Positions 42,441-62,411 of a stretch of DNA of 64,000 nt are shown in pieces. Every line of letters starts with the position of its first letter. The stretch's first letter is position 1. Source of the DNA: Sinorhizobium garamanticum (lineage in GTDB: Bacteria > Pseudomonadota > Alphaproteobacteria > Rhizobiales > Rhizobiaceae); assembly GCF_029892065.1 (NCBI RefSeq), contig NZ_CP120374.1:1426001-1490000 (forward strand), written 5' to 3'. Below the pieces are notes generated by a model. That model was given only the letters and a program-made list of their open reading frames with translations. It was not told the DNA's origin and did not search any database. Both the position numbers and the translations under genes were made by a program.

Positions 42441-44123
<1,683 letters not shown>

Positions 44124-47288: not shown

Positions 47289-47322
47289 CATCACCTCCCA
47301 GTGCATGAAGTCTCTTAATCTT

Positions 47323-47347
47323 AACGCTACCTACGTCTCAATGTTCC
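47323..47347 (-). promoter_or_regulatory. RpoE2/EcfG-type promoter of the acidic hypothetical gene
   Basis: On the minus strand GGAAC (47343-47347), 17 bases, GTT (47323-47325). Spacing to the ATG is normal. Confidence 0.7.
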
Positions 47348-48126: not shown

Positions 48127-48573
48127 ATGAGCTTGACGCGCCGCCACATGCTCACGGGGACGATCGGAACCTTCGCGTGGGTGTTGGCCTTGTGTCCGAG
48201 GCCTGCGCGAGCGGCTGACGAGGTCGACGACTTCGTCGAACAATGGATCGGGCGAAAGGCGACGCCTTCGGACCGGCTGAAGCTGATGATGCCGGCGGAA
48301 TTCTCGACCGGCTACACGGTTCCCATGGACATCTCGGTCGACAGTCCAATGACGGAGGCCGACCACGTCAAGTCCGTGCGCGTGTTTGCTCCCAAAAACC
48401 CGCTTGTCGAAGTGGTGCAGTTTCATTTCGTTCCGCGGCGCAGCCTCCCCCGCGTCTCGACCCGCATTCGGCTTGCCGCCCCGCAACATGTCGTGGCGCT
48501 TGCCGAGATGAGTGATGGCAGCCTGCTGACGGCGAAGGCTTGGGTGGCCGTCGCCAGCAATGGCTGTCTCTGA
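48127..48573 (+). CDS. soxY: SoxY-like sulfur carrier protein
   Basis: 148 residues. Twin-arginine signal LTRRHMLTGTIGTFAWVLAL with cleavage near ARAADE, as for SoxY exported folded with SoxZ. The mature part has the SoxY beta-sandwich pattern (IPIDISV-like VPMDISVDSPM, KSVRVFAPKNPLVEVVQF, RLAAPQHVVALAEMSDG). The functional tail differs from the canonical GGCGG: here it ends VASNGCL, leaving a single Cys next to the last residue. That Cys should still be able to hold sulfur covalently. First gene of a rightward operon with SoxZ and FccA/FccB-like genes. Confidence 0.85.
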   Translation: MSLTRRHMLTGTIGTFAWVLALCPRPARAADEVDDFVEQWIGRKATPSDRLKLMMPAEFSTGYTVPMDISVDSPMTEADHVKSVRVFAPKNPLVEVVQFHFVPRRSLPRVSTRIRLAAPQHVVALAEMSDGSLLTAKAWVAVASNGCL

Positions 48574-48593
48574 AATTGCGCAAGGAGGTAGGC

Positions 48594-48920
48594 ATGACCG
48601 CCCCCATACCCCGCGTGATGGTGCCGGGCTCGGTAGCGCGAAACGAGGTCTTCGCGGTCAAGGCCATCATCCAGCATCAGATGGAGACGGGACTGCGCAC
48701 CGATTCCAGCGGCGTGACGATCCCGCGGAAGATCATCAACCGCTTCGTTTGCCGCTATGGCGGCATCGAGGTCTTCCGCGTCGACCTGCACGAGGCCGTT
48801 TCGGCCAATCCGTTCTTCGAGTTTCATCTCCGCGCAACAGAGAGCGCCCGGCTCGAATTCATCTGGGAGGAGGACGGCGGCGCCACCTATTCACTCTCTC
48901 ACGACATGATGGTCGCCTGA
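48594..48920 (+). CDS. soxZ: SoxZ, partner of the sulfur carrier
   Basis: 108 residues from ATG 48594 with AAGGAGGTAGGC upstream. PRVMVPGSVARNEVFAVKAI, IQHQMETGLRTDSSGVTIPR and IINRFVCRYGGIEVFRVDL are characteristic of SoxZ, as is the C-terminal FIWEEDGGATYSLSHDM. No signal peptide, consistent with export in complex with SoxY. Two bases before the cytochrome gene. Confidence 0.92.
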   Translation: MTAPIPRVMVPGSVARNEVFAVKAIIQHQMETGLRTDSSGVTIPRKIINRFVCRYGGIEVFRVDLHEAVSANPFFEFHLRATESARLEFIWEEDGGATYSLSHDMMVA

Positions 48921-48921
48921 A

Positions 48922-49293
48922 ATGACAGCGGAACCGGTGGCCGCCATCGTCTTGCTTGCGGGGGGCGTCGCAACCGAAAGTCGATACCTCCCCGGTGTTT
49001 TGCTCTCCGCGTTTCTTCTTGTTCCGGGAGTCTCGGCCGCGGCGGATACGAGCCAGGGCGCCCAGATCGCCGCCACCTGCGCCTCCTGCCATGATCCGGT
49101 CGGGCGGGGGCAGGGCATTCCGTCGCTTACGACACTCGACGAACAGACGATCGTGAAGCGCATGCATGCCTTTCGGGCAAGCGAAAGCCCGAGCCATGTG
49201 ATGCATGCCGTCGCGCTGTCGCTCGGAGACGACGAACTGGCGGCCGTGGCACGCTATCTCGCCGACAGGGCCCACGCCGGGAGGCAGCGATGA
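48922..49293 (+). CDS. Monohaem cytochrome c, FccA/SoxE-like subunit
   Basis: 123 residues: N-terminal export helix (LLSAFLLVPGVSA, cut near AAADT), one haem site CASCH at Cys53-Cys56-His57, and a distal Met region (VMHAVALSL). It overlaps the flavoprotein start by 4 bases (ATGA), the typical arrangement of the haem and flavin subunits of flavocytochrome c sulfide dehydrogenase. Accepts electrons from the flavoprotein in the periplasm and passes them on. Confidence 0.85.
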   Translation: MTAEPVAAIVLLAGGVATESRYLPGVLLSAFLLVPGVSAAADTSQGAQIAATCASCHDPVGRGQGIPSLTTLDEQTIVKRMHAFRASESPSHVMHAVALSLGDDELAAVARYLADRAHAGRQR

Positions 49294-50564
49294 CCGGCTG
49301 GACACGACGCCAGACCGGAGGGCTGGCCGCAGGAGCTCTGGTGGCGGCGGCTGCGCCGCAGATTGCGCAGGGCCAGGGCCGGCCGAAGGTTGGCGTGGTC
49401 GGTGGCGGCATCGGCGGTGCGACGGTTGCCCGCTACCTTGCCGGCCTGGAGACGATCGATGTAACTCTCATCGAGCCGAACCCCACTCACGTAACGTGCT
49501 TTTTCAGCAATCTCTACCTCGCCGGATTTCGCTCGCTCGCCTCGCTGACCTTCGATCTTCAGTCGCTGGCCGAGCGTCACCGTATTACCTTCATCCGCAT
49601 GAGGGCGGTGGCGATTGACCCGACGGCGGGGACTGTCGTGCTTCAGGACGGGGCGAGGGTCAGCTTTGACCGGCTTGTGGTCGCCCCGGGTATCGCTTTC
49701 AAACTCGGCGAGATCGGCGGCTATGACGAGGCGGCGGCTGAAATCATGCCGCATGCCTGGGTTGCCGGACCCCAGAGCGAATTGCTGCGAAGGCAGCTAG
49801 AGAGCATGGAGGATGGTGGCCTGTTCATTATCGCGGCCCCTGCCAATCCATTCCGTTGTCCGCCGGCCCCTTATGAACGGGCGTCGCTCGTTGCTTACTA
49901 TTTCAAGCAATTCAAGCCGCGGTCGAAGGTTCTGATCCTCGATGCGAAGGACCGCTTTTCGGGGCAGGAACTGTTTCAGGACGCCTGGTCGCGCCACTAT
50001 CCGGGCATGATCGAATGGTTGCCGGTGCAGTTCATTGGAAAGACCAAGGCTGTCGATGCGGCGACCCGTTCGGTCGTGACGGAAGGTGAGACCTTCAACG
50101 CAGCCGTCGCCAATGTCATCCCGCCGCAGAAGGCCGGCTTAATCGCCGAACGGAGCGGCCTTACCGATGCCACGGGCTGGTGTCCGGTCGATCCGTTGAC
50201 GTTCGAGTCGACGCTGCAGCGCGGCATCCATGTGGTTGGGGACGCGATCATCGGCGGTGACATGCCGAAATCCGCTTTCTCCGCCAACAGCCAGGCCAAG
50301 GCCTGCGCCTTCGCTATCGCGGCAGCGCTCACCGGGTCGCCCCGTTTTCCGCCGCATCTCTTCAACTCTTGCTACACGTTTCTCGCACCTGACGATGCCT
50401 TTACCAATGCCATCACCTTCGCGCCCAAGGACGGAAAGATAAAGACTGTCAAGACGTTCATCAGCAAGGTAGGCGAGAGCGCGGAGGTTCGTCGCCGACT
50501 CGCCCATCAGGCGGTCGGTTGGTATTCGGCCTTCACGGCGGACGTGTTCGGCGGCGTGTCCTGA
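49290..50564 (+). CDS. fccB: Flavocytochrome c sulfide dehydrogenase flavoprotein (FccB/SoxF-like)
   Basis: 424 residues. Twin-arginine signal WTRRQTGGLAAGALVAAAAP. FAD-binding fingerprint KVGVVGGGIGGATVARYL at about 33-50. Sulfide-site features: Cys190 in NPFRCPPAPYERASLVAYYF and a further Cys in TGWCPVDPLTFES, plus VGDAIIGGDMPKSAFSANSQ near the FAD pyrimidine side. C-terminal FCSD flavin-binding domain is present (SCYTFLAPDDA). Oxidises sulfide (or a SoxY-bound sulfur) and reduces the partner cytochrome. Its last 58 bases overlap the P-ATPase gene tail to tail. Confidence 0.92.
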   Translation: MTGWTRRQTGGLAAGALVAAAAPQIAQGQGRPKVGVVGGGIGGATVARYLAGLETIDVTLIEPNPTHVTCFFSNLYLAGFRSLASLTFDLQSLAERHRITFIRMRAVAIDPTAGTVVLQDGARVSFDRLVVAPGIAFKLGEIGGYDEAAAEIMPHAWVAGPQSELLRRQLESMEDGGLFIIAAPANPFRCPPAPYERASLVAYYFKQFKPRSKVLILDAKDRFSGQELFQDAWSRHYPGMIEWLPVQFIGKTKAVDAATRSVVTEGETFNAAVANVIPPQKAGLIAERSGLTDATGWCPVDPLTFESTLQRGIHVVGDAIIGGDMPKSAFSANSQAKACAFAIAAALTGSPRFPPHLFNSCYTFLAPDDAFTNAITFAPKDGKIKTVKTFISKVGESAEVRRRLAHQAVGWYSAFTADVFGGVS

Positions 50565-52681
50565 TGGAATGACCTCCTACCGGCAAGGTCTGCCGGTTCG
50601 GGATCGGGCACGCGCGCGAGCCTCAAGGAATTCATAACGACAAGAAGACTCGAGCCCGCCATGACGACGGCGGCGAGGATCGGTTGCAGCAAGCCGAGCG
50701 CTGCGGCCGTCAGTGCGACGAGATTGTAGCCGAAGGCCCAAAGAAGATTGGTGAGAATGGTTCGCCGGACGGCGCGGGCGATGTCGATCACCCACGGCAG
50801 CATCCAGAACCCGCCATCGGGCAGGGTGAGGGCGGCGGCCTCTCGGGCAAGATCCGTGGCGGAGCCGACCGCAATGCCGACATCGGCATCCGCGAGGACC
50901 GGACCGTCATTGAGGCCGTCACCGACCATCGCCACCGGGCCGCGGCTTCCGCGGATATGCGCCAGCACCTCCCGCTTGGCTTCCGCCGACAGGCCGGCTT
51001 CGATTTCATCTATGCCGACTGCCGTAGCGATGTCCCGGGCGGGTCCTGTCCCGTCGCCTGTCAGGAGGACGGCATAAAGGCCGCGGCTCTGCAGCGCCTC
51101 GACTGCCGTGCGCGCTTCCGGGCGCGGCACGTCGTCAAGCGCGAGCACGGCACGGACGCGCCCATCCCAGCCGACATGGACCAGCGACCGGCCGTCGGCC
51201 TCGGATCCGCGGGCGCGCTCGCGCAACTTGAGCGAAAGCGGCCATCCGAGATCGCGCATCAAGGCGGCGCTGCCGACGGCCGCTGGCGCGTCGCCCACCG
51301 TGCCGCGGATACCGCGGCCGGGAATGGCGCGAACAGCCTGCGCTTCGAGTGGACGAACACCGCGCTCAGCTGCGGCTATTCTGACGGCCTTCGCCAGCGC
51401 ATGTTCGGAATGCCGTTCAAGACCGCTCGAATAGGACAGCACTTCATCGAGGCCCGCGCCGTCGGTATGGATGGCCGTCACATGCGGGCTGCCGGTGGTC
51501 AAGGTGCCGGTCTTATCGAAGGCAACGCCTCGCAACGTTGCGAGCGTTTCCAAAAGCTCTGGCTCGCGAAGAAGGCAGCCGCGGCGTGCGAGCCGACCGA
51601 TCCCGAGCGTGGTTGCAAGCGGAGCAGCAAGCCCGACGGCGCAGGGGCAGGCGACGACGAGAACGGCAAGCCCGATGAGGAGCGCCCGGTCGAAGGGTTC
51701 TGATTGCGCCCAGTAGGCGATCGTCAAGCCGCTCAGAGCCAGGACAAGTGGCACGGAGATGCTGACGATCCGGTCGGCGATGCGCTGGGTCGAACTTCGG
51801 TGAGATAGGGTGTCCCGAACCGACCGGCAGATATGGCCCCAGCGCGTATCGGCACCCGCGCCACTGCATCGGACAAGCAGCGGGCCATCGAAATTGATGC
51901 TGCCGGCGATGACCGGCATGCCGGGCGCTTTTGCAACCGGCCGGCTTTCGCCAGTGATCATGGCCTCATCGACGTTGGCCTCGCCCTCGGCGATGATGCC
52001 GTCGACGGGGATCAGTTCGCCCGGGCGCACCCGCACCAGCATGTCCGGAGCGACGTCGCGTACCGGCCGCCGGGTCTCGACGCCATCGGCGACGATTGTC
52101 GCGGTCGCGTTTTCCGCCGCGAGAAGCGGTTCAAGGTCGCGCGCGGCCTTGGCCCGGCTTTCGGCTTCGAGATAGCGGCCGAGCGTGAACAGCATCAGCA
52201 CCATCGAGGAGGTGTCGAAATAGACATGGGTGCTGCCTTCGAGGACCGCGAAGGCGGAGTAAAGATAGGCCGCCGCAACCCCGATGACGATCAGCGCTGC
52301 CGAGGTCAGCCGCCCTTCCATGGCGCCGCGCAGGGCCTCGCCCAGGAATGGTCCGCCGAGGAACACCACCGCCGGCGTGGCGAACAGCCACATGAGCGCG
52401 TGGACCCAGGGAAGGACATAGGCGTCCGCTCCGGCGAAGGTGCCCGTGTAGACGAGGAGGCTCAGCAGCATGATGTTCATGGAGAGGAAGGCGCCGACGC
52501 CGATGCGGACAAGGAGCCATGCCGCCTCCGATTCTTCACCTCTGCCGTGCCTGACATCGAAGGCGATCCGGCAGCCGTAACAGCAGAAGGTGTGCTCCTC
52601 GCCATCGAGCCTATGCCGCACGGGCCGCCGGCCAGCCGGTAGCAGGCAATGGCTGCAGAGGCTGGTCTCGCGCTCGCTCAT
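50507..52681 (-). CDS. Copper-type P1B ATPase for oxidase assembly (CcoI/CtpA-like)
   Basis: 724 residues from the ATG at 52679-52681, coupled by ATGA to the upstream gene. N-terminal Cys-rich segment (Cys9, 12, 33, 34, 37: CSHC and CCYGC) of the PF12156 type instead of a GMxCxxC heavy-metal domain, which is absent. Eight membrane helices with the transport motif ACPCAVGLA (about 344), phosphorylation site FDKTGTLTTG (about 390), GDGLNDGPVLADA hinge. P1B ATPases of this type supply copper to cbb3 oxidases through the periplasm, exactly the context here. Last gene of the leftward operon; ends within fccB on the opposite strand. Confidence 0.93.
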   Translation of the reverse strand: MSERETSLCSHCLLPAGRRPVRHRLDGEEHTFCCYGCRIAFDVRHGRGEESEAAWLLVRIGVGAFLSMNIMLLSLLVYTGTFAGADAYVLPWVHALMWLFATPAVVFLGGPFLGEALRGAMEGRLTSAALIVIGVAAAYLYSAFAVLEGSTHVYFDTSSMVLMLFTLGRYLEAESRAKAARDLEPLLAAENATATIVADGVETRRPVRDVAPDMLVRVRPGELIPVDGIIAEGEANVDEAMITGESRPVAKAPGMPVIAGSINFDGPLLVRCSGAGADTRWGHICRSVRDTLSHRSSTQRIADRIVSISVPLVLALSGLTIAYWAQSEPFDRALLIGLAVLVVACPCAVGLAAPLATTLGIGRLARRGCLLREPELLETLATLRGVAFDKTGTLTTGSPHVTAIHTDGAGLDEVLSYSSGLERHSEHALAKAVRIAAAERGVRPLEAQAVRAIPGRGIRGTVGDAPAAVGSAALMRDLGWPLSLKLRERARGSEADGRSLVHVGWDGRVRAVLALDDVPRPEARTAVEALQSRGLYAVLLTGDGTGPARDIATAVGIDEIEAGLSAEAKREVLAHIRGSRGPVAMVGDGLNDGPVLADADVGIAVGSATDLAREAAALTLPDGGFWMLPWVIDIARAVRRTILTNLLWAFGYNLVALTAAALGLLQPILAAVVMAGSSLLVVMNSLRLARVPDPEPADLAGRRSFHQDTPPNTSAVKAEYQPTA

Positions 52682-53394
52682 ACGAGGTGCTCTCCGTGCA
52701 GCAGGCCAATTGGCAGCACGCCGCGGCCGAGAGTCACGAGCCCCAGCAGCAGGATGAACAGGCCGGCGATTCGGACGCCGCGCAGTCGCCATGGGGGGCC
52801 GATCGCGCTGCCGAGGCCGCCCAACATGAACATGGCCGGAAAGGTGCCGAGCCCGAAGGCTAGCATCGTGAGGAGACCGGGCAGCGCGCCCGCTGTACTC
52901 GCCGCCTGCGCAAGGAAGGCATAGACGAGCGGGCAGGGCAGGAGTCCGTTGAAGACACCGAAAGCGAGCGGCGCGCCGCGTCCGGGCGCCTTCAGCACCC
53001 GGCGAAGGGCGCTGGCAAACGAGCTGCCGCCGATGCCGAGGGCGAAAGGATGAAAGCCCTTGAGGAGGCCGAAGAACTGCAAACCGATCGTGACCATGAG
53101 GAGACCGGCAACGATCGCCAGCAGGCGCTGGGCGAGATCCACGGAGCCGCCCAGAACTGGCGTGGAGGGGCCGGCGGACGTACAAATGACCTGCCCCAAG
53201 GCGCCCGCGGCGACACCCAGGAAACAGTAACTGGTGAGGCGGCCGCTGTTATAAAGAAAGTGTCGCGCAAACGTCGCCGTCGGCCCGCGCGGATCGTGGC
53301 CGAGGGCACAGGCAAAGCCTCCGCACATGCCGATGCAGTGGAAGCTCCCGGCGAAACCAGCTATGAACAAGACGAGATAAGGAGTCATGGCCAT
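52678..53394 (-). CDS. TauE/SafE-family (CcoH-neighbour type) membrane protein
   Basis: 238 residues, about seven membrane helices. Starts MAMTPYLVLFIAGFAGSFHC and keeps IGMCGGFACALG with two Cys, then GRLTSYCFLGVAAG and FGVFNGLLPCPLVYAFLAQA. This 'sulfite exporter TauE-like' subfamily with HCIGMCGG is regularly encoded beside cbb3 oxidase genes and is thought to take part in copper delivery. Overlaps the P-ATPase start by 4 bases. Confidence 0.9.
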   Translation of the reverse strand: MAMTPYLVLFIAGFAGSFHCIGMCGGFACALGHDPRGPTATFARHFLYNSGRLTSYCFLGVAAGALGQVICTSAGPSTPVLGGSVDLAQRLLAIVAGLLMVTIGLQFFGLLKGFHPFALGIGGSSFASALRRVLKAPGRGAPLAFGVFNGLLPCPLVYAFLAQAASTAGALPGLLTMLAFGLGTFPAMFMLGGLGSAIGPPWRLRGVRIAGLFILLLGLVTLGRGVLPIGLLHGEHLV

Positions 53395-53411
53395 ACCCAC
53401 GGGCCGCCCGC

Positions 53412-53534
53412 CTATTTCCAGACGAGATAGGCCACCCAGACGAAGAAGCCGATGTGGAAGACTGCGCCGCCCACAAAAGCTAAGGTCTGAAGCGCGCCGG
53501 CATCGCTGAACGAGAACGCCGTTTCCGGAAGCAT
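53412..53534 (-). CDS. 40-residue membrane peptide of the oxidase operon
   Basis: MLPETAFSFSDAGALQTLAF followed by VGGAVFHIGFFVWVAYLVWK: one transmembrane helix and a basic C-terminus. GGGAGGG lies 6 bases before the ATG; the next gene starts 17 bases after the stop. Possibly an oxidase accessory peptide of CcoS/CcoQ kind, but it matches neither by eye. Confidence 0.75.
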   Translation of the reverse strand: MLPETAFSFSDAGALQTLAFVGGAVFHIGFFVWVAYLVWK

Positions 53535-53546
53535 AATGCCCTCCCG

Positions 53547-53645
53547 TCAACCGAAATAGCTCAGATATACGTTGAGCGACAGTTCGGAGAGCAGAAAGAG
53601 CAGGTTCAGCGCCGCTACGGCGAGGATGATCCTGGCTGCCAACAT
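53547..53645 (-). CDS. 32-residue membrane peptide of the oxidase operon
   Basis: MLAARIILAVAALNLLFLLS followed by ELSLNVYLSYFG: one transmembrane helix. The stretch AGGAGGGAAGGAACG before the ATG is a strong ribosome site. 12 bases from the next gene. Probably an oxidase subunit or assembly peptide. Confidence 0.72.
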   Translation of the reverse strand: MLAARIILAVAALNLLFLLSELSLNVYLSYFG

Positions 53646-53665
53646 CTTTCGTTCCTTCCCTCCTG

Positions 53666-53872
53666 CTAGATTCTTCCTGGCCCCAGCCCGCCCCAATACT
53701 GAAAGGCGTAGTAGAGTGCCCAGACGAAGAGCACGAAATAGACGACGAGCAGCCAGGCGGGGATATAGCCGTGTTGCCCTTCAATGGCCCCGCCGCCATA
53801 CTCCTCCTTGTCGTCGTGCGGCTCGTCAGGAGGCTTTGTGCTCTCTGGACCGGTGGCGTGAACGTTCGTCAT
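53666..53872 (-). CDS. Single-span protein resembling CcoP N-terminus
   Basis: 68 residues: charged N-terminus (KPPDEPHDDKEEYGGGAIEG), then GYIPAWLLVVYFVLFVWALY and YAFQYWGGLGPG. The order (acidic lead, Pro-x-W, transmembrane helix, Trp-Gly end) is like the membrane anchor of CcoP without its haem domains, which are fused to CcoO in this operon. Overlaps the preceding gene by 47 bases in another frame. Confidence 0.75.
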   Translation of the reverse strand: MTNVHATGPESTKPPDEPHDDKEEYGGGAIEGQHGYIPAWLLVVYFVLFVWALYYAFQYWGGLGPGRI

Positions 53873-54020
53873 TTTCCATTTCCCTTTCGTAGAAATGCCT
53901 CGACGCCTCGTCGGTATTGCGCAAGGCGCCCGAGAACACCCCCCAGATGAACAGGCACAGGGCGCCGAGGCTCATCATCAGTGCGCCGGCATAGGGACCG
54001 GTGATTTCGAAATCAGGCAT
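53826..54020 (-). CDS. 64-residue single-span protein of the oxidase operon (CcoS/CcoQ-like)
   Basis: MPDFEITGPYAGALMMSLGA, then LCLFIWGVFSGALRNTDEAS and a charged tail ending KAS. One helix followed by NTDEASRHFYEREMEND, which recalls the FixS/CcoS pattern of a helix plus acidic tail ('WAVRSGQFDDLE'), though not identical. Starts 3 bases after the CcoO stop. Confidence 0.75.
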   Translation of the reverse strand: MPDFEITGPYAGALMMSLGALCLFIWGVFSGALRNTDEASRHFYEREMENDERSRHRSREHKAS

Positions 54021-54022
54021 TG

Positions 54023-55690
54023 TCAGCCTCCCCCAGCGACATGGCGCGTCTCGGCTGCGCCGCCGTCGCGAGCGCCGCCCGTTGCCCCGCTTCTCGGAAC
54101 GTAGGCCTTGTCCGGGGTGGCGGCTTGCAAAGTGAGCTCGTCGAGCGCTTTACGGTCGGATTCGGTTATGTTCAGCGGTTCGAGCGTGAGCGGGTCCCGA
54201 TAGGCGGAAAGCGAGAGGATGTAGAATGAAAGCGCCCAGCGATCCTCGTCCGGGAAAGCGTTTCGATAGGAGGGCATGGGCGTGCCGCTCATACCCGTCG
54301 AGATTGTTCGGTATATGTCCTCCACCGTCGATCCCGACTTGAACTGGCCGCTGGTGAGGTCGGCCGGGATGATCGGGAAGCCGAGGTCGTCCTTGAGACC
54401 CGGTGCCTTCTGGCCATCGCCCTTGCCGCGCTGGCCGTGGCATTCCCAGCATTTCGCCTGCTGCCAGATCTCGGCGCCGCGGGTGAGCAATTTGGCCGAA
54501 GGCTCCGGCGGCCTGCCGATGATCAGCGGCGGACCGGGCGGCTCCTCGGTGAAGAAGGCATAGGGCGCGGCCGGATCGGAGCGGTCGACGGCGAGCTCGT
54601 GCTTGATGTACTGAATGACGGCGAGGCGGTCATTGATCGGCAATTCGTGCCAGGCCGGCATGGCCGTACCGCGCACGCCGCGCGTGATCGTCCGAAGCAG
54701 GTCGCCATCGGTCGGCAGCGGTTCCTTCGTCAGCCGGAACTTGAACACCGCAGCGCTGAAATCGCGCGGCCGCTGCTTGTAGAGGAAGGTCGCCGCCGGC
54801 CCGTTGCCGTCGCCTTTGACGCCGTGGCAGCCGACGCAGCGCCGTTCGTAGACAGTCTTGCCGTAGCCGATCCACTCCTCCGAACGCGGCAGCGTGACAT
54901 CGATCGTTTCCAATTGCTGCGGCTCGAACAGATCGCGCCATTTGCCGCGCTGCGTGCCGAGTTTCTGGAGGTAGGCGACGAGGGCGTGAAGCTCCTGCGT
55001 TTCGGCCGCGATGTTGACCACGTCGCCACCGAACTGCTCGCCGGGGATGAGGATCACCGGTTTCTTCTCACGCGCCTCCAGCGGCACAAAGAGCAGACCG
55101 TCCGCATTCGGCGTCAGGGAGATCGGGGTCTTGCTGTCGAAGTCGAACAGCGCTTCGGTGACCGGAGTCCTTTCCAGGGTGCGCCCTCCCGCGCCGTCGT
55201 CGACGATCCGGACGCCGCTGGCCGACCGGTCGAAGAGGTCGCGATAGGGCGCCATGATGGAATCTGGCGACAGCATCCGCGGGTCCCAGAAATGCGCAAT
55301 GTGCCACTCGTCGCCAAACTTCAGCCCCACCCGCATCAGGTCCGGCCCGATGCGCCGCGTGCCGAAAAGGTGCGGGACGTCATAGGCAAATTCGCCGGCT
55401 TCGGTCACCGGACCCCAACGGCGCGTCTCGCCCGTAACGGGGCGAACGAACTGCGAGTGGCAATACCAGCAGCCCTCGCGCAGATAGACGGCGCGGCCTT
55501 CCTTTTGCAGCGGCGTGTAGTCGGTCGCCTCCGTCACCATCCACTTGAGTTGCCCAAGACTGGTCCTGACGACCGAGGTCACCCTCGTCGTCCGCGCCGA
55601 TGGCTCGAAGAAGGGGAGGATCCCTTGCGTGATCACGGCGAGAAAGAAAAACCCGATACCTGCCACCAGAGCTACGAAACGCGCAGTCAT
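54023..55690 (-). CDS. ccoO: CcoO fused to a diheme cytochrome c (triheme subunit)
   Basis: 555 residues. N-terminal membrane helix (about 5-27) and CcoO core with haem site CWYCHSQ (Cys74, Cys77, His78), GPVTEAGEFAYDVPHLFGTR and RIGPDLMRVG. After about residue 260, two further cytochrome c domains follow: CVGCHG at 285-289 and CWECHG at 414-418, the CcoP arrangement with Met ligands in MPAWHELP and MPSYRNAFP. Usual CcoO is about 200-240 residues, so this is a CcoO-CcoP-like fusion that makes a separate CcoP unnecessary. The ATG overlaps the CcoN stop (ATGA). Receives electrons from periplasmic cytochromes and passes them to CcoN. Confidence 0.93.
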   Translation of the reverse strand: MTARFVALVAGIGFFFLAVITQGILPFFEPSARTTRVTSVVRTSLGQLKWMVTEATDYTPLQKEGRAVYLREGCWYCHSQFVRPVTGETRRWGPVTEAGEFAYDVPHLFGTRRIGPDLMRVGLKFGDEWHIAHFWDPRMLSPDSIMAPYRDLFDRSASGVRIVDDGAGGRTLERTPVTEALFDFDSKTPISLTPNADGLLFVPLEAREKKPVILIPGEQFGGDVVNIAAETQELHALVAYLQKLGTQRGKWRDLFEPQQLETIDVTLPRSEEWIGYGKTVYERRCVGCHGVKGDGNGPAATFLYKQRPRDFSAAVFKFRLTKEPLPTDGDLLRTITRGVRGTAMPAWHELPINDRLAVIQYIKHELAVDRSDPAAPYAFFTEEPPGPPLIIGRPPEPSAKLLTRGAEIWQQAKCWECHGQRGKGDGQKAPGLKDDLGFPIIPADLTSGQFKSGSTVEDIYRTISTGMSGTPMPSYRNAFPDEDRWALSFYILSLSAYRDPLTLEPLNITESDRKALDELTLQAATPDKAYVPRSGATGGARDGGAAETRHVAGGG

Positions 55691-57132
55691 TCGGCAGGCT
55701 CCCCGGCAGGCTCGGCGCCCGGCCGCAAGGCAGGCCGTTTCTCGGTGGCGGGCTCAAGGAGCGTCGTCAGCATCAGGTTGACGACGAGCAGCGACATGCC
55801 GACATCCATGCTGATGCCGGAGAGGGTGCGGACGAACCAGTAGGGCTTCATCGGAACCACCGTGTCCAGCCATTCGGCGCCGGCCATCCATTGGAATCCC
55901 TGCTGGAGGCCGCCGGCCGTTAGCACCAGCCCCATGGTGGAGATGCCGACGGTGATCAGCCAGAACGACCAGTTCCCCATGCGAAACGACCACAGCTCGC
56001 GGCCCCAGACACGCGGCCACACGTAGATCAGGCCGCCCATCGCCCAGACGACGAAAGTGCCGAAGACGGTGAGGTGCGAGTGCGAGATGACGAAATCGGT
56101 AAAATGGGTCGGCTGCTGGATGCTGCGCAGCGCCTCGGTCGAACCCTGGAAGCATCCGATGAGATACATGATCGAGCCCATGATCAGGAACTTGGCGGGC
56201 AGGTTTCGGCCGAATTCGTGCCACTTACCCATCATCGTGCCGAAGAAGTTCACGAGCACCGTCCACACGGGAATGATCAGCAGCATCGAGGTGGTGATGG
56301 CGATCGTCTCGGCCCAGTCGGCGATCGGGCTGAAGAGGTAATGATGGATGCCGACGAACGGATAGAAGAGCGCGAGCGACCAGAATCCGACCAGCGAGAG
56401 CTTGTGAGAAAAGAGCGGATTTCCGGCGCTGATCGGCAGGAAATAGTAGATCAGCACATAGCCGGCGGGCGTGATCCATAGGCCGACGATATAGTGGATG
56501 TAAAGGCCGTGGAAGGCTGCGCTGTTGATGCCGTTGATGGTGTAGGGCAGGATGAAGCTGCCGAGGATGAGGTTCATCGTCGTCCAGATGAAGGCGCCGA
56601 TCAGGTACCAGAGCGCGACGTAGAGCGGTGGCTCCAGCCGCCGCGCGATGGCCATGAGGAACTGCAGCGTAGTGGTCGCCACGACAATGAACAGCGGAAT
56701 CTCGGCGAAGAGCGGAAGCTCCCCAGCCTCTAGCCCGTGATTCTCGCCGAGGGGAAGCGAGATGAGAGCTGCGGCCAGCGCAAGATTCCAGAGCCAGGCC
56801 AGCGGCGCACCCAGCCGCGCCCAGGGGACTTCAACACCGCAAAGCCGGGGAACCAGATAGTAGCATTCGCCGAAGAAGAGTGCGGAGAAGGCGCCGAAGA
56901 TGACGCCGTTGACATGCACCGGGCGCAACCGGCCGAAGGTCAGCTCGATATTCTCGGTGCCGAGATAGTCCGGAAAGGTGAAGAGGCCCGAGATCGCGAC
57001 GCCGATCGAGGGCGTTACCATCAGCCAGAACATGCCCCAATAGAGCCAGGTGCGTACGGCCTGCCACTCGACGAGAGCGTCCAGGTCGACGCCCGAGAAT
57101 TTGCCACGCAGCACGGTGCCCGTTTCCGCCAA
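55687..57132 (-). CDS. ccoN: cbb3-type cytochrome c oxidase subunit I (CcoN-like)
   Basis: 481 residues from a TTG with GGGAGG 8 bases upstream. About 12 membrane helices. Metal ligands of C-family haem-copper oxidases are present: His73 (low-spin haem, RPVHVNG), His213 (CuB, YIHYIVG), Tyr257 (cross-link Tyr, LFYPF), His263/264 (CuB, GIHHYLF), His351 and His353 (haems, SHSHLTVFG). The Glu of nitric oxide reductases is absent from the CuB helix, so O2 reduction is expected. Terminal oxidase with high oxygen affinity, located in the inner membrane. Confidence 0.93.
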   Translation of the reverse strand: MAETGTVLRGKFSGVDLDALVEWQAVRTWLYWGMFWLMVTPSIGVAISGLFTFPDYLGTENIELTFGRLRPVHVNGVIFGAFSALFFGECYYLVPRLCGVEVPWARLGAPLAWLWNLALAAALISLPLGENHGLEAGELPLFAEIPLFIVVATTTLQFLMAIARRLEPPLYVALWYLIGAFIWTTMNLILGSFILPYTINGINSAAFHGLYIHYIVGLWITPAGYVLIYYFLPISAGNPLFSHKLSLVGFWSLALFYPFVGIHHYLFSPIADWAETIAITTSMLLIIPVWTVLVNFFGTMMGKWHEFGRNLPAKFLIMGSIMYLIGCFQGSTEALRSIQQPTHFTDFVISHSHLTVFGTFVVWAMGGLIYVWPRVWGRELWSFRMGNWSFWLITVGISTMGLVLTAGGLQQGFQWMAGAEWLDTVVPMKPYWFVRTLSGISMDVGMSLLVVNLMLTTLLEPATEKRPALRPGAEPAGEPAE

Positions 57133-57267
57133 GACATGTCCTCCCTGCTTCCGCCGGCCCTTGCTCGGGCCAGGCGTGGCGCTCGCACCTTCAGTTCATG
57201 GCGCAAGGCACGCCGCCCTGCGTCAAAATCGTTTCACACCGCGGGTCGATCAGGCGCGCGGGCGGCT

Positions 57268-57738
57268 TTAGAATTTGCCCGGCTGCAGCACCGAGCCGGT
57301 GTTCGACCAGGTGATGTACGCTTCAAGTGCCTTCATCGCCTCCGATTCCGGATCGATCTTCACGCCCTGGTTCGGCTTCTCGATGCACCAGTTGATCATG
57401 TCGCGCAGGGTCGCGAACTTGGCCATCTGCGCCTGGAATTTCGGGAAGGATTGTGGATGCGTGTCCGACGCCATCGGATGGCACATCGCGCAGGCCATGC
57501 CGGTTTTCGAAAGGTCGTCGGCGACGCCCATCTCCTCGGCCGTCCTCTGGTCACCATGGAAGAGAAGGTCACCCTTCCTCACCTGTTCCATGAATACTGC
57601 CTCGTAGGCCTTCAACAGCTCCGGCGTCACCGGATCCTTGTGGGCGCTTGTCGATCCTGGGACGACGGCGGCGATGGCGATCCCCCCAAGTATGGCGAAA
57701 CGCCGCAATGGCAAGCGGAACTTCGAGCGGGTTGTCAT
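57268..57738 (-). CDS. SoxA-like monohaem cytochrome c
   Basis: 156 residues from ATG 57738, placed 6 bases after GGAGGA; upstream starts give no better ribosome site. Signal peptide FAILGGIAIAAVVPGSTSA. One haem site MACAMCHP (Cys83, Cys86, His87) and a later Cys118 in LRDMINWCIEKPNQG, which corresponds to the conserved R-I-N-x-C block of SoxA. Close to SoxY, SoxZ and FccB-like genes, this suggests an electron carrier for sulfur oxidation to the oxidase encoded next door. Precedes ccoN by 135 bases, same strand. Confidence 0.82.
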   Translation of the reverse strand: MTTRSKFRLPLRRFAILGGIAIAAVVPGSTSAHKDPVTPELLKAYEAVFMEQVRKGDLLFHGDQRTAEEMGVADDLSKTGMACAMCHPMASDTHPQSFPKFQAQMAKFATLRDMINWCIEKPNQGVKIDPESEAMKALEAYITWSNTGSVLQPGKF

Positions 57739-57872
57739 GACCATTCCTCCGCTAAAGACCGCGACGATCTTGGATCGGATCGCTCCAAAATCATGAGCGC
57801 GATCGATTCCCATAAGTCAGAGCGGGGCTCGGTCTTCCTGTCTTATTCGTCCCGCCCTGGAATGCGGCGGCA

Positions 57873-59009
57873 CTAGTACGGCCACATATTGTCGGCGATC
57901 CTTGGACGGATGATTTCCGAGACATGTTTGTCGTGATCCGCGGCCGATTGCACGAAGACCTCCTTGCGGCCCCACATGATATATTCCGTTTTGACCTCGT
58001 CGGTGGCGGCGACATCGATCTTTTCCCAGCCGACCCCGTCAAAGGGATCGCCGGGATCGACACGGATCATTGGCTTGGTCAGTTTCGGCACGCCTTCCGG
58101 CGCATAGGGCCATGGCCAGGAGGTCGCCAGCATGCCGATCGACCGCAAGGTGCCGATCTCGTTGTAGAGTACTTGGTGGACATGGCCGTGAATATTGGTG
58201 ACCTTGGTGTAGGGCTTCAGCACCTCATGCACCTCACGCCAATCGCGCACCCAGAAATTCCACGGCGGGTAATATTCGTAGAGCGGATTGTGGCTGAAGA
58301 TGATCACAGGCCGGTTCTTGTCCCAATCGGCCAGCGTTTTCTCCACCCAGTCGAGCTGGTCGCGACCGACACCGGCCCATGGTCCGGCGACCGTACCGTC
58401 GAGCGTCGCCATATGGCCCATGCGCTCTTCGGGCGTCATGTTCTTTGCCGTCCAGTAGTCCGGACCACGGCTGACGGTGTCGAGGCCGATGAAGCGCACG
58501 CCCTTGTGATCGAAGGTCCAGTTGGGCTGGCCAAAGAGCTCGCCCCATTTCTTGCCCATGTCGAGGTACCAGTCGTGCTCGCCCGGGATGTAGTGCTTCG
58601 GGATCGTGATCTCCTTCAGGAGGTCGACGCCGAGCTCGAGCTCCTCGATCTTCCCAAGCTGGGCGAGGTCACCGCCGAAGATCAGGAAATCGGCCGGCGG
58701 ATCCATCGCCTGGACCTCTGAAGCCGCCCGTATGACCTTGTCGACGAAGCGCGTGTTCAGCGACCTCGGATAGAGATGGGTATCGGAGATCCAGGCAAAT
58801 TTGAACGGCGCTTCCGCAGCATGGGCGATGTCGAGCGTGTTAAGCAGCGGCCACCATGCGAAGGTCTGGCCGACAGTGGCTGCGCCGAAGATGAGCGATC
58901 CGTGAATGAATGTGCGGCGGGTGATTTTCAGGGTGTCGTCGGGGCGCACCCCTTCGGGCTGCAATACGGAATGCATTTCGCGACGAATGCGATCAAGTTC
59001 GTCAGACAT
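57873..59009 (-). CDS. Exported metallophosphoesterase
   Basis: 378 residues. Twin-arginine-like signal LKITRRTFIHGSLIFGAATV with cleavage near AHAAEA. Calcineurin-type motifs: WISDTHLY (Asp76, His78), FGGDLAQ (Asp114), GEHDWY in place of GNHD (143-146, Asn replaced by Glu), FSHNPL and NIHGHVHQ. Fits periplasmic metallophosphatases with four- to six-coordinate dimetal centres. Its presence inside a respiratory and sulfur gene run is unusual; the substrate is unknown. Followed by the SoxA-like gene after 134 bases. Confidence 0.88.
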   Translation of the reverse strand: MSDELDRIRREMHSVLQPEGVRPDDTLKITRRTFIHGSLIFGAATVGQTFAWWPLLNTLDIAHAAEAPFKFAWISDTHLYPRSLNTRFVDKVIRAASEVQAMDPPADFLIFGGDLAQLGKIEELELGVDLLKEITIPKHYIPGEHDWYLDMGKKWGELFGQPNWTFDHKGVRFIGLDTVSRGPDYWTAKNMTPEERMGHMATLDGTVAGPWAGVGRDQLDWVEKTLADWDKNRPVIIFSHNPLYEYYPPWNFWVRDWREVHEVLKPYTKVTNIHGHVHQVLYNEIGTLRSIGMLATSWPWPYAPEGVPKLTKPMIRVDPGDPFDGVGWEKIDVAATDEVKTEYIMWGRKEVFVQSAADHDKHVSEIIRPRIADNMWPY

Positions 59010-59108
59010 GACGTTTCCTCCTCTCGGCCGAAAGAAGAGCTCGGCCCTGCAGAGGCAGACATGGCGCGGGCCACGTCGTGGTTTTTATTGCTCTTTTTTA
59101 CGCGGGTA

Positions 59109-59825
59109 CTATTGCTTCTTCAGCTCGATATCGAGCGTCGCGGCCTTTCCGCCCTCAACGCTGACGGACATTTCCATCGGCCCGGTGAAGGGATGCACGG
59201 CGACGAGCTTGTATTCGCCAGGGGGAACGTCCGTTATCGAGAATTTTCCGTCGGGGCCGGTTACGGCGTAGTAGGGGTTGTCGACGACGTAGATCCAGCC
59301 CTCCATCCAGCCATGCGCGTCGCAGTCGAGGCGAACCGTGCCCGGGCGAGGCAATTCAACGGGGATGCGCTGGCCCTGGTTCGGGAGCGCCAGATTGAAG
59401 GCCGTGCGCTTGCCGTAATAGCCGTGTGTATTGTGCAGCATCGGGTCCGAGTTGACGACGTCCAGCCCCCCCGGCGCGATCACCTGCACTTCCGGTACGA
59501 AGCGGCATTTCTCATTGTCGAGTTCGGGTGTCTTGCCGGGCTCCGGCCAATCCTTGCCGGATGCCACATCGACGAGATAGACGGCTGCGCTTTCCACGGC
59601 CTGGTCGGCGCCGACGCGGATCAGCGGCTCCTCCCGCGGCTGTCCGCAGACCTGGACGTCCTTGGTCGGGATGACCGTTTTCATGGGAACGTTGCCGCGA
59701 TAGACGACGACGCCTTCAATTGACCCGCCTCCGCTGACGGCACTCACCTCATAGGCAAGGGCCGGGGATGCGATCGTCACGGTTGCGGCAACGAGAAACT
59801 CAGAGAAGAAGCGGCGCTTTCTCAC
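59109..59825 (-). CDS. Cupredoxin-like exported protein
   Basis: 238 residues from a GTG at 59823-59825 (GGGAGGGG seven bases before). Signal peptide LVAATVTIASPALA. The central domain has a likely type 1 copper site: His131 and His134 (MLHNTHGYYG), Cys168, His171 and Met174 (LDCDAHGWMEGW). The C-terminal 60 residues are a carboxypeptidase-regulatory-like beta domain (VTGPDGKFSITDVPPGEYKL). Probably a periplasmic electron or copper carrier of the neighbouring oxidase. First gene of the leftward run; a divergent promoter region separates it from SCO. Confidence 0.8.
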   Translation of the reverse strand: MRKRRFFSEFLVAATVTIASPALAYEVSAVSGGGSIEGVVVYRGNVPMKTVIPTKDVQVCGQPREEPLIRVGADQAVESAAVYLVDVASGKDWPEPGKTPELDNEKCRFVPEVQVIAPGGLDVVNSDPMLHNTHGYYGKRTAFNLALPNQGQRIPVELPRPGTVRLDCDAHGWMEGWIYVVDNPYYAVTGPDGKFSITDVPPGEYKLVAVHPFTGPMEMSVSVEGGKAATLDIELKKQ

Positions 59826-59864
59826 AGCAACCCCTCCCTTCAAAGGAAAGTTGAATTCTTGTTC

Positions 59865-59875
59865 AGAATGATTCT
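59865..59875. promoter_or_regulatory. Palindrome in the divergent promoter region
   Basis: AGAAT-G-ATTCT within TTCAGAATGATTCTAA, between the divergent cupredoxin and SCO genes. The shape resembles the iron-response (Irr/Fur-like) boxes of rhizobia (TTnAGAA...TTCTnAA). Metal regulation would suit the copper and haem genes on both sides. Only one short palindrome, so this is tentative. Confidence 0.35.
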
Positions 59876-60063
59876 AATATCAAGCCGAAAATGTGAATTC
59901 GGTGAGGCTGGCAACAGTGTGGGGACAGGCGGGTCGATCGCCGCAAATCCTATTGAATTTGTTGTAAATCCGGTTTTCGTTCCAGCCCGCCGGCCTTGCG
60001 ATGCATCCGTTGGCCTCGAAAGCGCGCAACGGCAATGGCGGTTCGCGGGGAAGGAGGCACGGG

Positions 60064-60666
60064 ATGGAGAGGCTGAACGGTCGACATCGAGCTTCGGTCT
60101 TCCACTGCGCGGTCTTTCTCGGCTTCATCTCGGCGGCGCTGTTTGTTGCGACCACGCCTGCCAGCGCCGCGTCGCCGGTGACGATCGGCGGACCGTTCAG
60201 CCTCGTCGCGCCGGATGGGACGGTGGTCACCGATTCGGACTTCCATGGAAAATGGATGCTCGTCTTCTTCGGTTATACGAATTGCCCCGACACCTGTCCG
60301 ACGACGTTGAGCCAAATGGCGATAGCCCTCGACAGGCTCGGTGCTGAGGGGAAGCGGGTCCAGCCGGTGTTCATCACCGTCGATCCTGAACGCGATACGC
60401 CGAGTGCAATGGGGGAATATACCCGCGCCATCGATCCGCGGATTATGGGCTTGAGCGGCAGCGAGCGGCAGATCGCTGCCGTCTCACGCGAGTATGGCGC
60501 CTATGGCGAGCCGCGGGCGTCGGGGCATGGCGATCACCTCTTCGATCACAGCACGTATATCTACGTCATGAACCCGCGCGGTGAGTTCGCGCGTGGCCTG
60601 GAGGCGGATGCTTCGGGCGATCAAATCGCGGACACGCTCCGGCGTCTGATGGCGCAGGCCGAGTAG
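60064..60666 (+). CDS. SCO1/SenC copper chaperone
   Basis: 200 residues from ATG 60064 (GGAAGGAGG upstream). N-terminal membrane anchor (about 13-35). Thioredoxin-like fold with the copper-binding CPDTCP (Cys74, Cys78) and distal His162 in GDHLFDHSTYIY. SCO proteins deliver copper to CuA or CuB sites; next to a cbb3-type oxidase it may serve CuB insertion. Diverges from the cupredoxin gene and is followed by groEL2. Confidence 0.93.
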   Translation: MERLNGRHRASVFHCAVFLGFISAALFVATTPASAASPVTIGGPFSLVAPDGTVVTDSDFHGKWMLVFFGYTNCPDTCPTTLSQMAIALDRLGAEGKRVQPVFITVDPERDTPSAMGEYTRAIDPRIMGLSGSERQIAAVSREYGAYGEPRASGHGDHLFDHSTYIYVMNPRGEFARGLEADASGDQIADTLRRLMAQAE

Positions 60667-60729
60667 GGGAACAGGCGCCGCGACCTGCGCGGCGGAGGCA
60701 GCAAGTCGAGGTGTTGCAGCACCTTTCGG

Positions 60730-60754
60730 GCGTCTGATCAGATGCGCGGCGCTG
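60730..60754 (+). repeat. Short palindromic intergenic repeat, copy 2
   Basis: GCGTCTGATCAGATGCGCGG followed by CGCTG, in the SCO-groEL2 gap. The GCGTCTGA...TCAGATGCGC part can form a hairpin. Related to 45428-45455. Confidence 0.6.
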
Positions 60755-60770
60755 CAGGGAGGAGGAAGCC

Positions 60771-62411
60771 ATGACCGTCAAGGACATCAAATTCGCCTTC
60801 GGAGCGCGCGACAGCATGATGCGTGGCATCGAGACGCTCGCACACGCCGTGGGCGTCACCCTTGGGCCGCGCGGGCGGAACGTTGCCATCAGCCGTGCCC
60901 ACGGCACCAAGATCACCAAGGACGGCGTGACGGTCGCGCGGGAAGTCGACCTGGGCGACAGGTTCGAGGAGATGGGGATTAAATTGCTCCGCCAGGTCGC
61001 GATCAAGACCTCCTATCTCGCAGGCGACGGCACGACGACGGCGGTGGTGCTTGCCGATGCGATCCTTAGGGGCGGGGTTCGCGCGGTTGCCGCTGGCATG
61101 AACCCGATGGACATCAAGCGCGGCATAGATCGCGCGGTCGAGGCGGTTGTGACCGAGCTCAGGCAGAATGCGCGGCCGGTCGCATCAAATGCCGAGATCG
61201 AGCAGGTTGCCACGATCTCTGCAAATGGCGACCGGGAGATCGGCCGGATCATCGCCGACGCGATGGCCAAAGTGGGCAACCAAGGCGTCATCATGATCGA
61301 GGAAGGCCGGTCGCTCGAGACCGAGAGCGAAGTCATTACCGGCATCCAGTTCGACCGCAGCTACATCTCTCCGCATTTCGTCACCAACAGGCAGAAGATG
61401 CTGGTGGAGATGGAGGACGCGTTTGTTCTTCTTTGCGACCGGAAGCTTTCGAGCCTGAACGAAATTCTGCCGCTTCTGGAAAAGGTGATGCAGGCCGACA
61501 GGCCGCTTCTCATCATTGCCGAGAACGTCGAGGCAGAGGTCAGGGCGGCGCTGATCGTGAACCGGCTTCGCGCCGGTCTGAAGGTGGTTGCCGTCAAGGC
61601 GCCGGCCTATGGCGAACTCCGCAAGGCAGTCCTGCAGGACATCGCGCTATTGACCGGCGGAACGGTGATCTCGGACGATCTCGGCCTCAAGCTCGAGACC
61701 CTGCCGCTGGAGAGCCTCGGTCGCGCGCGGAAGATCAGGATCGACAAGGAAAATACGACGATCGCGGAAGGGGGCGGTTCGAGCGCGGAGATCGCGGCCA
61801 GGGTCGCCTCCCTCAAGGCTCAGATCGAACGCTCCACTGACGATTTCGACCGCGACAAGCTCGAGGAGCGGCTGGCACGGCTCTCCTCCGGGATCGCCGT
61901 GATCAAGGTCGGCGGCGCGACCGAGTCGGAGGTCCGGGAGAAGAAGGACCGTATCCGCAACGCCATGCATGCGACCCGCGCCGCCTTTGAAGAGGGCATC
62001 CTGCCGGGCGGCGGCGTCGCCCTCCTGCGGGCGAGCAAGGCGATTCGGACGCTCAAGGTCGAGAATCCCGACCAGCAGGCGGGTATCGGTATCGTGAGGG
62101 AGGCGATAGCCTGGCCGGCGAAATACATCGCCGCCAATGCCGGCGAGGACGGCTCGCTCGTTGCTGAGAGAATTCTGCAAACCGATGACTACGCTGCGGG
62201 TTACGATGCCCAGACCGGAACGTTCTGCGATCTCATCGCCGCGGGCATCGTCGATCCCGCCAAGATCGTGCGCACGGCGCTCCAGGGCGCGGCGTCCGTC
62301 GCCGGACTGATGGTCATGACGGAGGCCATGGTGGCCGAGGTGCCGGGTCCCCCGCCGCCGGAACTCCCGGGCCATCACGATCACGAGGACAACCTCGACA
62401 TCGAGTTTTAG
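60771..62411 (+). CDS. Divergent second GroEL chaperonin with His/Asp-rich tail
   Basis: 546 residues with GGGAGGAGGAAG before the ATG. Core features are intact: [38 protein letters not shown], and [14 protein letters not shown]. It differs from the groEL at 42441 at many positions and lacks the C-terminal GGM repeat, ending [22 protein letters not shown] instead, a possible metal-binding tail. No groES or CIRCE box is adjacent. Placed beside SCO and the oxidase operon, it may be specialised for these proteins' cytosolic precursors; this is inference. Confidence 0.92.

Follow-up and report, generated by a model that had tools for sequence, protein, structure and literature searches.

Linked SoxYZ, flavocytochrome c and cbb3-like oxidase genes in Sinorhizobium garamanticum suggest a mobile sulfur-to-oxygen module

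Among the described systems that resemble the locus considered here, the Sox thiosulfate pathway of the Paracoccus type includes SoxEF. The locus itself is a module of ~17 genes and ~14 kb in Sinorhizobium garamanticum, at positions 48127-62411 of a 64,000-nucleotide stretch (contig NZ_CP120374.1, positions 1,426,001 to 1,490,000; hereafter the window), in which genes for a SoxYZ sulfur carrier and a flavocytochrome c sulfide dehydrogenase (FCSD) adjoin genes for a cbb3-like oxidase. For Bradyrhizobium diazoefficiens, the available part of one study describes thiosulfate (Sox) electrons as going preferentially via cytochrome c550 to aa3 (PMC5748708). Closer to our organism, the available portion of Sugawara et al. 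2013 (PMC4053727) reports a "soxYZEF-like, sulfur oxidation" cluster in 7/33 S. meliloti and 2/2 S. fredii and places hemA2 among variable genes; in that of Galardini et al. 2011 (PMC3164228), AK83 and BL225C are listed with an accessory hemA homologue. The cluster of Sugawara et al. is very probably the sulfur half of the module described here. What differs is that, in the part available, it appears as a presence count only, and neither the adjoining oxidase genes nor those for the SoxA-like protein, the phosphoesterase and the cupredoxin are given; nowhere does the main text use the word "oxidase".

In the 6.8-Mb S. garamanticum genome, which comprises three contigs, the module lies on contig C2; its closest named relatives by CcoN are Sinorhizobium/Rhizobium, with S. 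shofinae at 96%. A rightward run, soxY-soxZ-cytochrome-FCSD, converges on a leftward run that encodes, in order, a cupredoxin, a metallophosphoesterase (MPE), a SoxA-like cytochrome, CcoN, a CcoO-diheme fusion, a 64-amino-acid (aa) open reading frame (ORF) at the CcoQ position, three more small ORFs, a DsbD_2 membrane protein and a P1B ATPase. The last genes of the two runs, those for FCSD and the ATPase, overlap briefly at 50507-50564, and the SCO and GroEL genes are divergent from the cupredoxin gene. An earlier reading of the window made from its sequence alone (the sequence-only reading) had described these genes, apart from the three further small ORFs, with their orientations, and translation and profile scans found all of them present as stated. 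The same gene set recurs in many genomes, so its assembly reflects more than chance.

Linkage of the sulfur and oxidase halves

One scan of genome contigs yielded 50 named loci, and the spread outside Alphaproteobacteria rests on that scan. SoxY was found within the oxidase locus in 32 of the 50, made up of 31/33 loci with alphaproteobacterial titles and 1/17 others. The two alphaproteobacterial misses are a locus whose contig stops in the ATPase gene (L024) and a variant with AioAB-like genes (L050) that is taken up below. FCSD also occurred in 32 loci, namely the SoxY loci minus L040 plus L053. In the SAR324 locus L044, soxY-soxZ-SCO-cytochrome-FCSD lie downstream of the ATPase gene on the same strand, an order unlike that of rhizobia; in the SAR324 locus L053, soxZ, SCO and FCSD lie inside and a SoxY with an NGC arm lies at the locus edge.

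Within the genus, CcoN (E <= 1e-130) was detected in 12 of 33 genomes, and the corresponding counts were 4/397 for the order and 1/385 for the class, the S. garamanticum genome being included each time. All 12 CcoN-positive genus genomes carry SoxY on the same contig, no more than ~11 kb from ccoN. The 21 CcoN-negative ones have SoxY only in 271- to 285-aa frames (8 genomes) or none (13 genomes); one module genome, G017, itself has the module SoxY in a 282-aa frame. This co-occurrence gives a Fisher p of 2.8e-9 among genomes that are non-independent, because the block is inherited whole. The SoxA model (TIGR04484) matches exactly the 12 module genomes of the 33, always under its cut-off. SoxY matches in frames of 271 to 285 aa were seen in twelve genus genomes in all (L075-L086; 8 without the module), and such frames may represent the fused SoxYZ carriers of TIGR04557.

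Plasmids give the same picture. CcoN (E <= 1e-100) was found in 38 plasmid records, S. meliloti pSymA included, and 38/38 have the module SoxY 7.2-12.5 kb away. At E <= 1e-20, SoxY is present in 43 plasmid records, that is, these 38, the S. meliloti plasmids CP140953 and CP140942, and three with SoxY at <60% identity that are without CcoN (Indioceanicola and two Neorhizobium). Megaplasmid records of S. meliloti Rm41, SM11 and BL225C carry the module, and two annotated S. meliloti pSymA copies and a Phyllobacterium plasmid have hemA in addition to the set, although only some of their small ORFs are annotated. On pSymA of S. meliloti ml47 (L117:10782-20107), the oxidase half has been lost naturally: an IS21 element replaces the genes from the phosphoesterase through DsbD_2, and what remains is the sulfur half, the ATPase gene and, where the soxA-like gene would be, a hypothetical gene. 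A link to symbiosis was also considered. nodC scored above cut-off in 31/33 genus genomes, which leaves no contrast for testing; in S. garamanticum its copy is on contig C3, apart from the module on C2.

Together, these counts support the sulfur genes and the oxidase genes as parts of one set. The sequence-only reading had staked its proposal on this linkage, and the contrary case, halves unlinked in all relatives, was not seen in loci, genomes or plasmids; the co-occurrence it pointed to extends through the alphaproteobacterial loci and, rearranged, to SAR324.

A further line of evidence comes from loci in which the oxidase half is of foreign type. In Ensifer IC3342 (L036), Ensifer IC4062 (L037), S. 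psoraleae (L063) and Sinorhizobium 8-89 (L041), ccoN is 97-98% identical to that of Mesorhizobium temperatum, and ccoN, ccoOP, DsbD_2 and the ATPase gene together show 95-98% identity to that species. Their MPE is 96-97% identical to S. fredii and 87% to M. temperatum, and their FCSD, of Sinorhizobium type, 78-81% and 65-67%, respectively. L038 clusters with these four in trees, which makes five loci in all. In quick trees of 32 rows, with the group defined after the identities were known, a single clade of the eight Sinorhizobium-type rows was rejected for ccoN (approximately unbiased test, p-AU 4.6e-98) and not rejected for MPE (0.45) or fccB (0.137). Fragments of a soxA-like gene lie just upstream of the Mesorhizobium-type ccoN in the same four loci (~9601-10020), and this remnant indicates the boundary of the exchanged half. 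Thus, on these sequence comparisons, the oxidase half was exchanged for the same kind of oxidase beside a native, retained sulfur half.

The module is without several hallmarks of the Sox pathway. SoxB (TIGR04486) exceeded its cut-off of 550 in 0/33 genus genomes, S. garamanticum included (best, 138 bits), and SoxC (TIGR04555) its cut-off of 420 likewise in 0/33 (best, 231 bits; S. garamanticum, 104). Matches below cut-off were present for SoxB in 33/33 genus genomes, the same search also matching in 10/14 control genomes, and for SoxC in 31/33. Full-length SoxA was above cut-off in 0/33, the sub-cut-off match being the module's own small cytochrome. In the cluster, the SoxX model gave a 25.6-bit sub-cut-off match inside the CcoO fusion; SoxX was not searched genome-wide. 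The sequence-only reading had called SoxB, SoxCD and SoxX absent, which stands at the cut-off for SoxB and SoxC and goes further than the searches for SoxX and SoxD, the latter not searched for. Its statement that this is not the known Sox thiosulfate pathway agrees with SoxB, SoxC and full SoxA lying under cut-off throughout the 33 genus genomes.

Encoded proteins and conserved residues

The features of the module are collected in Table 1. In CcoN, which matches the cbb3 CcoN structure 3mk7 with 182 bits, six His and a Tyr before the His pair are aligned with the known enzyme; the six His and Tyr257 are invariant in 50 sequences, and we take them to be the metal/heme ligands and the active-site Tyr. 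CcoN, CcoO and CcoP all fall under their equivalog cut-offs (221.9 vs 583.15, 135.5 vs 200.65 and 47.9 vs 179.95 bits). In the CcoO fusion, FixO residues 52-247 are followed by cytochrome domains.

Table 1. Features of the module, in order of position in the window
Feature	Position	Strand	Basis
SoxY-like sulfur carrier, variant swinging arm ending SNGCL	48127..48573	+	PF13501, 93.1 bits (cut-off 28.4)
SoxZ	~48594..48920	+	TIGR04490, 81.7 bits (cut-off 76); start picked by translation
Monoheme periplasmic cytochrome c (SoxE/FccA position)	48922..49293	+	PF00034 above cut-off; one CxxCH
FCSD flavoprotein (FccB/SoxF)	49290..50564	+	PF21706 and PF09242 above cut-off
P1B ATPase, probably Cu-translocating (CcoI-like)	~50507..52681	-	TIGR01525 and TIGR01511 (Cu) above cut-off
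DsbD_2/TauE-SafE-like membrane protein, candidate oxidase assembly factor	~52678..53394	-	PF13386, 148 bits; start picked by translation
40-aa single-helix ORF, candidate small subunit	53412..53534	-	conservation across loci
32-aa single-helix ORF, candidate small subunit	53547..53645	-	conservation across loci
68-aa stand-alone FixP_N-like ORF (CcoP membrane domain)	53666..53872	-	PF14715, E 0.0012
64-aa CcoQ-position membrane ORF	53826..54020	-	in 47/50 loci; no Pfam family
CcoO (FixO) fused to diheme CcoP-like domain	54023..55690	-	PF02433, 156.6 bits; three CxxCH
CcoN-like catalytic subunit, divergent cbb3-like oxidase	55687..57132	-	PF00115, 238 bits
Small monoheme SoxA/TsdA-like cytochrome, 157 aa, invariant Cys119	57268..57741	-	PF21342, 37.1 bits (cut-off 27)
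MPE, twin-arginine translocation (Tat) type, GpdQ-like fold, GEHD motif	57873..59009	-	PF00149
Cupredoxin-like protein with CarboxypepD_reg-like domain	59109..59843	-	PF13620, 33.5 bits (cut-off 32.3)
Irr/ICE-like palindrome TTCAGAATGATTCTAAT, between SCO and cupredoxin genes	59862..59878	.	2 mismatches to Irr/ICE consensus
SCO1/SenC copper chaperone	60001..60666	+	PF02630, 167 bits
GroEL paralogue of module	60771..62411	+	TIGR02348, 714.7 bits (cut-off 582.1); linked in relatives

The small ORFs between the oxidase and assembly genes are themselves conserved. A lenient search (E up to 20, up to 4.5 kb downstream of ccoN, 50 related loci) found the 68-, 32- and 40-aa ORFs in 49/50 loci each, with E <= 0.01 in 49, 48 and 37, respectively, and E <= 1e-5 for the 68-aa ORF in 49/50; at the sole miss, L064, the contig stops inside ccoN. 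Differences between orthologues concentrate at third codon positions, the substitutions at positions 1/2/3 being 12/15/34 for the 68-aa ORF (2 loci), 64/38/97 for the 32-aa ORF (8 loci) and 102/74/165 for the 40-aa ORF (9 loci). The 68-aa ORF, which reaches 18.9 bits against FixP_N, short of the cut-off of 24.9, resembles a detached CcoP membrane domain. Because the diheme part is fused to CcoO while this FixP_N-like ORF stands separate, the oxidase looks like a cbb3 enzyme with a split CcoP. In an Ectothiorhodospiraceae metagenome-assembled genome (MAG; L056:7833-11018), the ccoN frame continues without a stop into the ccoOP region to 1061 aa, possibly a CcoN-CcoO-P fusion or a sequence error.

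On the sulfur side, the SoxY-like protein stays under the cut-offs of TIGR04488 (true SoxY; 87.1 bits vs 125) and TIGR04487. An [ND]GC arm occurs in 32/32 SoxY orthologues of the named loci, in place of the GGCGG arm; AACIE, the name of a SoxY-related NCBIfam family, was not found in the literature searched. The FccB/SoxF flavoprotein matches structures 5n1t, 3vrd and 1fcd, and across 32 sequences C190 and C361 are invariant and C70 is present in at least 95%, presumably the FAD-linking Cys and the redox Cys pair.

Structural matching of the SoxA-like cytochrome returned TsdA and SoxA at the top, with Cys119 aligned to the Cys of both and thus a Cys at the ligand position; against the full SoxA model TIGR04484, it scored 30.1 bits (cut-off 110). 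In the MPE, R31 R32 and E144 H145 D146 are invariant, and its best profile and structure matches are GpdQ, Rv0805 and purple acid phosphatase, with a predicted model of low confidence (mean predicted local distance difference test score, pLDDT, 60). The MPE was considered as a SoxB substitute, and the model and profile searches favor the GpdQ/Rv0805/purple acid phosphatase folds instead; SoxB is not among the listed matches, which excludes nothing. That the MPE might supply a hydrolytic step in place of SoxB is speculation. The name cupredoxin was chosen because of H137, C174, H177 and M180, invariant in 48 sequences; no cupredoxin family scored.

As for assembly and heme supply, the P1B ATPase is also above the cut-off of TIGR01512 (Cd). 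A match to a second 5-aminolevulinate (ALA) synthase gene (hemA) occurs in 25/50 named loci, as fragments only in L018 and L036, in 24/28 loci with matches to SCO as well as GroEL, and in 4/5 plasmid copies examined (L113-L116, not the IS21-deleted L117). No hemA match was found in the window or in L016, L021, L023 or L041. GroEL, SCO and the ATPase, together with the second ALA synthase, form a kit for building a heme-copper enzyme. The palindrome of Table 1, scored against an Irr/ICE iron-heme box consensus, is the only site with <=3 mismatches to it in 64 kb. Across 7 Sinorhizobium/Ensifer loci the same site recurs with <=2 mismatches, and Mesorhizobium L062 has one like it; the site is kept among Sinorhizobium rows and not across most other genera. 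FixK/FNR boxes (TTGAT-N4-ATCAA, TTGA[TC]-N4-[AG]TCAA) had no match in 44001-64000.

Elsewhere in the window, a further GroEL gene lies at 42441-44075, ~4 kb upstream of the module (958.9 bits to PRK12850). Genes for a GajA-like OLD-family nuclease and a GajB-like UvrD helicase at 3115-7390 form a Gabija-type anti-phage defence pair, and an IS66 transposase (25251-26843) is followed at 27516-33850 by an operon for an ATP-binding cassette transporter of the branched-chain amino-acid type with a GntR/FCD regulator. Rfam and tRNA scans across the window gave zero matches.

Donor modules and competing explanations

On balance, and with some reserve, we favor as the most likely reading a horizontally mobile lithotrophy cassette that would wire sulfide or sulfane sulfur (persulfide) straight to O2. 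The sequence-only reading had proposed much the same role, with an oxidase whose affinity for O2 may be high. The FCSD cysteines, the Cys of the SoxY arm, Cys119 of the SoxA-like protein and the six His and Tyr of CcoN are all conserved in its favor. In such a cassette, the periplasmic FCSD flavoprotein would oxidize sulfide or sulfane sulfur and pass electrons to its monoheme cytochrome, and the variant SoxYZ arm would hold zero-valent sulfur on its only Cys. The SoxA-like cytochrome, which also contains a Cys, may either act on the carrier in additional thiol-sulfur redox steps or accept the carrier's electrons. From there, the soluble cytochrome and/or the cupredoxin would feed the triheme CcoO-P fusion and then CcoN, which would reduce O2, the quinone being bypassed. 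Copper, folding and heme would come from SCO, the ATPase, the DsbD_2 protein and GroEL, joined in many relatives by the second ALA synthase.

Several observations weigh against this proposal. Its support consists of gene content and co-inheritance, from which we infer the substrate, the electron path and the cupredoxin as shuttle. The cytochrome adjoining FccB is monoheme, not diheme. In TsdA, the available part of one report assigns thiosulfate binding to Arg109, Arg119 and Ser127 (PMC4423706); alignments show that the SoxA-like protein has not kept these residues and has Q105, M115 and P123 instead. CP140953 and CP140942 carry the module SoxY without CcoN, CP140953 with an IS21 element in place of the oxidase genes. 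Beta- and gammaproteobacterial loci (Thiocapsa, Cupriavidus, Pseudothauera, Thauera and others) have the oxidase without SoxYZ in the examined flank, several contigs being short. Finally, the oxidase itself is not sulfur-specific, because two MAG loci (L049:3452-9384 and L050:3474-9437) pair it with genes resembling those of the arsenite oxidase AioAB, whose large subunits score 448 and 473 bits (NCBIfam cut-off 359) and small subunits 132 and 134 (cut-off 96). In both loci, the cupredoxin and oxidase are of the same types as in the module and are accompanied by CtaG and a second diheme cytochrome, and no phosphoesterase or SoxA-like match was found. No donor was recognized in L042 or L055, the upstream sequence being short in L042. 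Thus, the oxidase appears not to be tied to one kind of donor, and the sulfur half, which lies outside the oxidase's wider core, to be one of two or more donor modules.

It is possible, if somewhat doubtful, that the real unit consists of the oxidase, cupredoxin, phosphoesterase and SoxA-like protein with a donor of its own, and that SoxYZ-FCSD joined later in Rhizobiales and SAR324 as a partner for sulfide detoxification, whose electrons may reach other oxidases too. The gene counts over the 50 loci fit this idea (cupredoxin 47, SoxA-like 45 and MPE 44 vs SoxY 32), as do the AioAB variant, the two plasmids with SoxY and no CcoN, and the beta- and gammaproteobacterial loci, which have cupredoxin, phosphoesterase and SoxA-like genes and no adjacent SoxYZ. 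Yet the association of the halves survives both rearrangement and replacement of the oxidase half, and outside the rhizobia SoxY is commoner in oxidase-bearing genomes than in the phylum at large. Of 18 module genomes, of unstated completeness, that do not belong to the main rhizobial set (L042, L044-L056, L058, L060, L064 and L065; three are from SAR324, one is from Gemmatimonadetes and one is the Hyphomicrobiales MAG L050), 15 have some SoxY, vs 127/398 genomes of the window's phylum (Fisher p 1.7e-5, not corrected for phylogeny, four of the 18 being SAR324 or Gemmatimonadetes). Several SoxY in those 15 genomes end in the canonical GGCGG.

That two unrelated functions merely hitch-hike on one mobile segment strikes us as improbable. 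Such an origin would suit the patchy spread over genus, order and class and the plasmid location in many strains, and block inheritance makes the co-occurrence counts non-independent; but the same partners occur in SAR324 in a different order, and a short-frame SoxY is missing from all 21 CcoN-negative genus genomes (the longer frame being that also seen in the module genome G017). Hitch-hiking is also hard to reconcile with the exchanged oxidase, because the swap is like for like beside a kept sulfur half. Still further from our expectation is a catalytic subunit that is a nitric oxide reductase or other gas reductase instead of an oxygen reductase. The compact subunit does lie far under the ccoN equivalog cut-off and has a weak NorB match (31 bits), against which stand the 182 bits to cbb3 CcoN and the complete set of six His and Tyr, invariant in 50 sequences. 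NorB is not known to have the Tyr preceding the His pair; on this residue and the two scores we reject the nitric oxide reductase identity.

Returning to the lithotrophy cassette, we infer that it is best read as a dedicated cbb3-like oxidase, fed from the periplasm by swappable inorganic-donor modules, here with sulfide or sulfane sulfur. More tentatively, it may belong to an undescribed class of portable lithotrophic cassettes in which a split-CcoP cbb3-like oxidase and a shared cupredoxin are combined with interchangeable periplasmic donor modules (in rhizobia and SAR324, SoxYZ-FCSD together with a small Cys-ligated SoxA; elsewhere, AioAB-like proteins) for quinone-independent respiration of inorganic donors, including sulfide to O2 at low oxygen on pSymA-type megaplasmids of some strains. 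If true, a complete donor-to-oxygen wire would be held in ~14 kb and be common to nitrogen-fixing symbionts including S. meliloti. Sulfide respiration by rhizobia in soil and nodules, a role of SoxYZ without SoxB, and this oxidase lineage as a general partner for periplasmic inorganic oxidations would all become testable, and the locus points to a CcoP in two parts and to new small subunits of the oxidase.

Comparison with known systems

In the literature searched, with most subscription papers outside it, we found neither the combined module nor any mention of the coupling to an oxidase, of a split CcoP, of the variant SoxY arm, of an exchanged oxidase half or of AioAB as the alternative donor. 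With the Sox thiosulfate pathway, the module shares a SoxYZ carrier, with SoxZ above cut-off, and a SoxE/F-like pair; it differs in being without above-cut-off SoxB, SoxC and full SoxA and in its [ND]GC arm, which is not GGCGG. Similarly, its flavoprotein has both domains and the conserved Cys of FCSD as in Allochromatium FccAB, whereas the partner cytochrome has one CxxCH and is not diheme. The SoxA-like protein resembles the Cys-ligated cytochromes TsdA and SoxA in scoring above the PF21342 cut-off with its Cys aligned; unlike TsdA, which has two hemes, it has one CxxCH, and the thiosulfate-binding Arg/Arg/Ser are replaced. Arsenite oxidase enters the comparison through L049 and L050, where AioAB-like genes stand in the place of the donor next to an oxidase and a cupredoxin of the same types; they are not in the S. 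garamanticum window. With the cbb3-type oxidases of the C family of heme-copper oxidases, finally, the module shares the six His and Tyr of CcoN, the CcoO/FixO domain, a diheme CcoP-like domain and copper assembly genes, but its diheme part is carried on CcoO and the CcoP membrane domain is apparently a separate 68-aa ORF.

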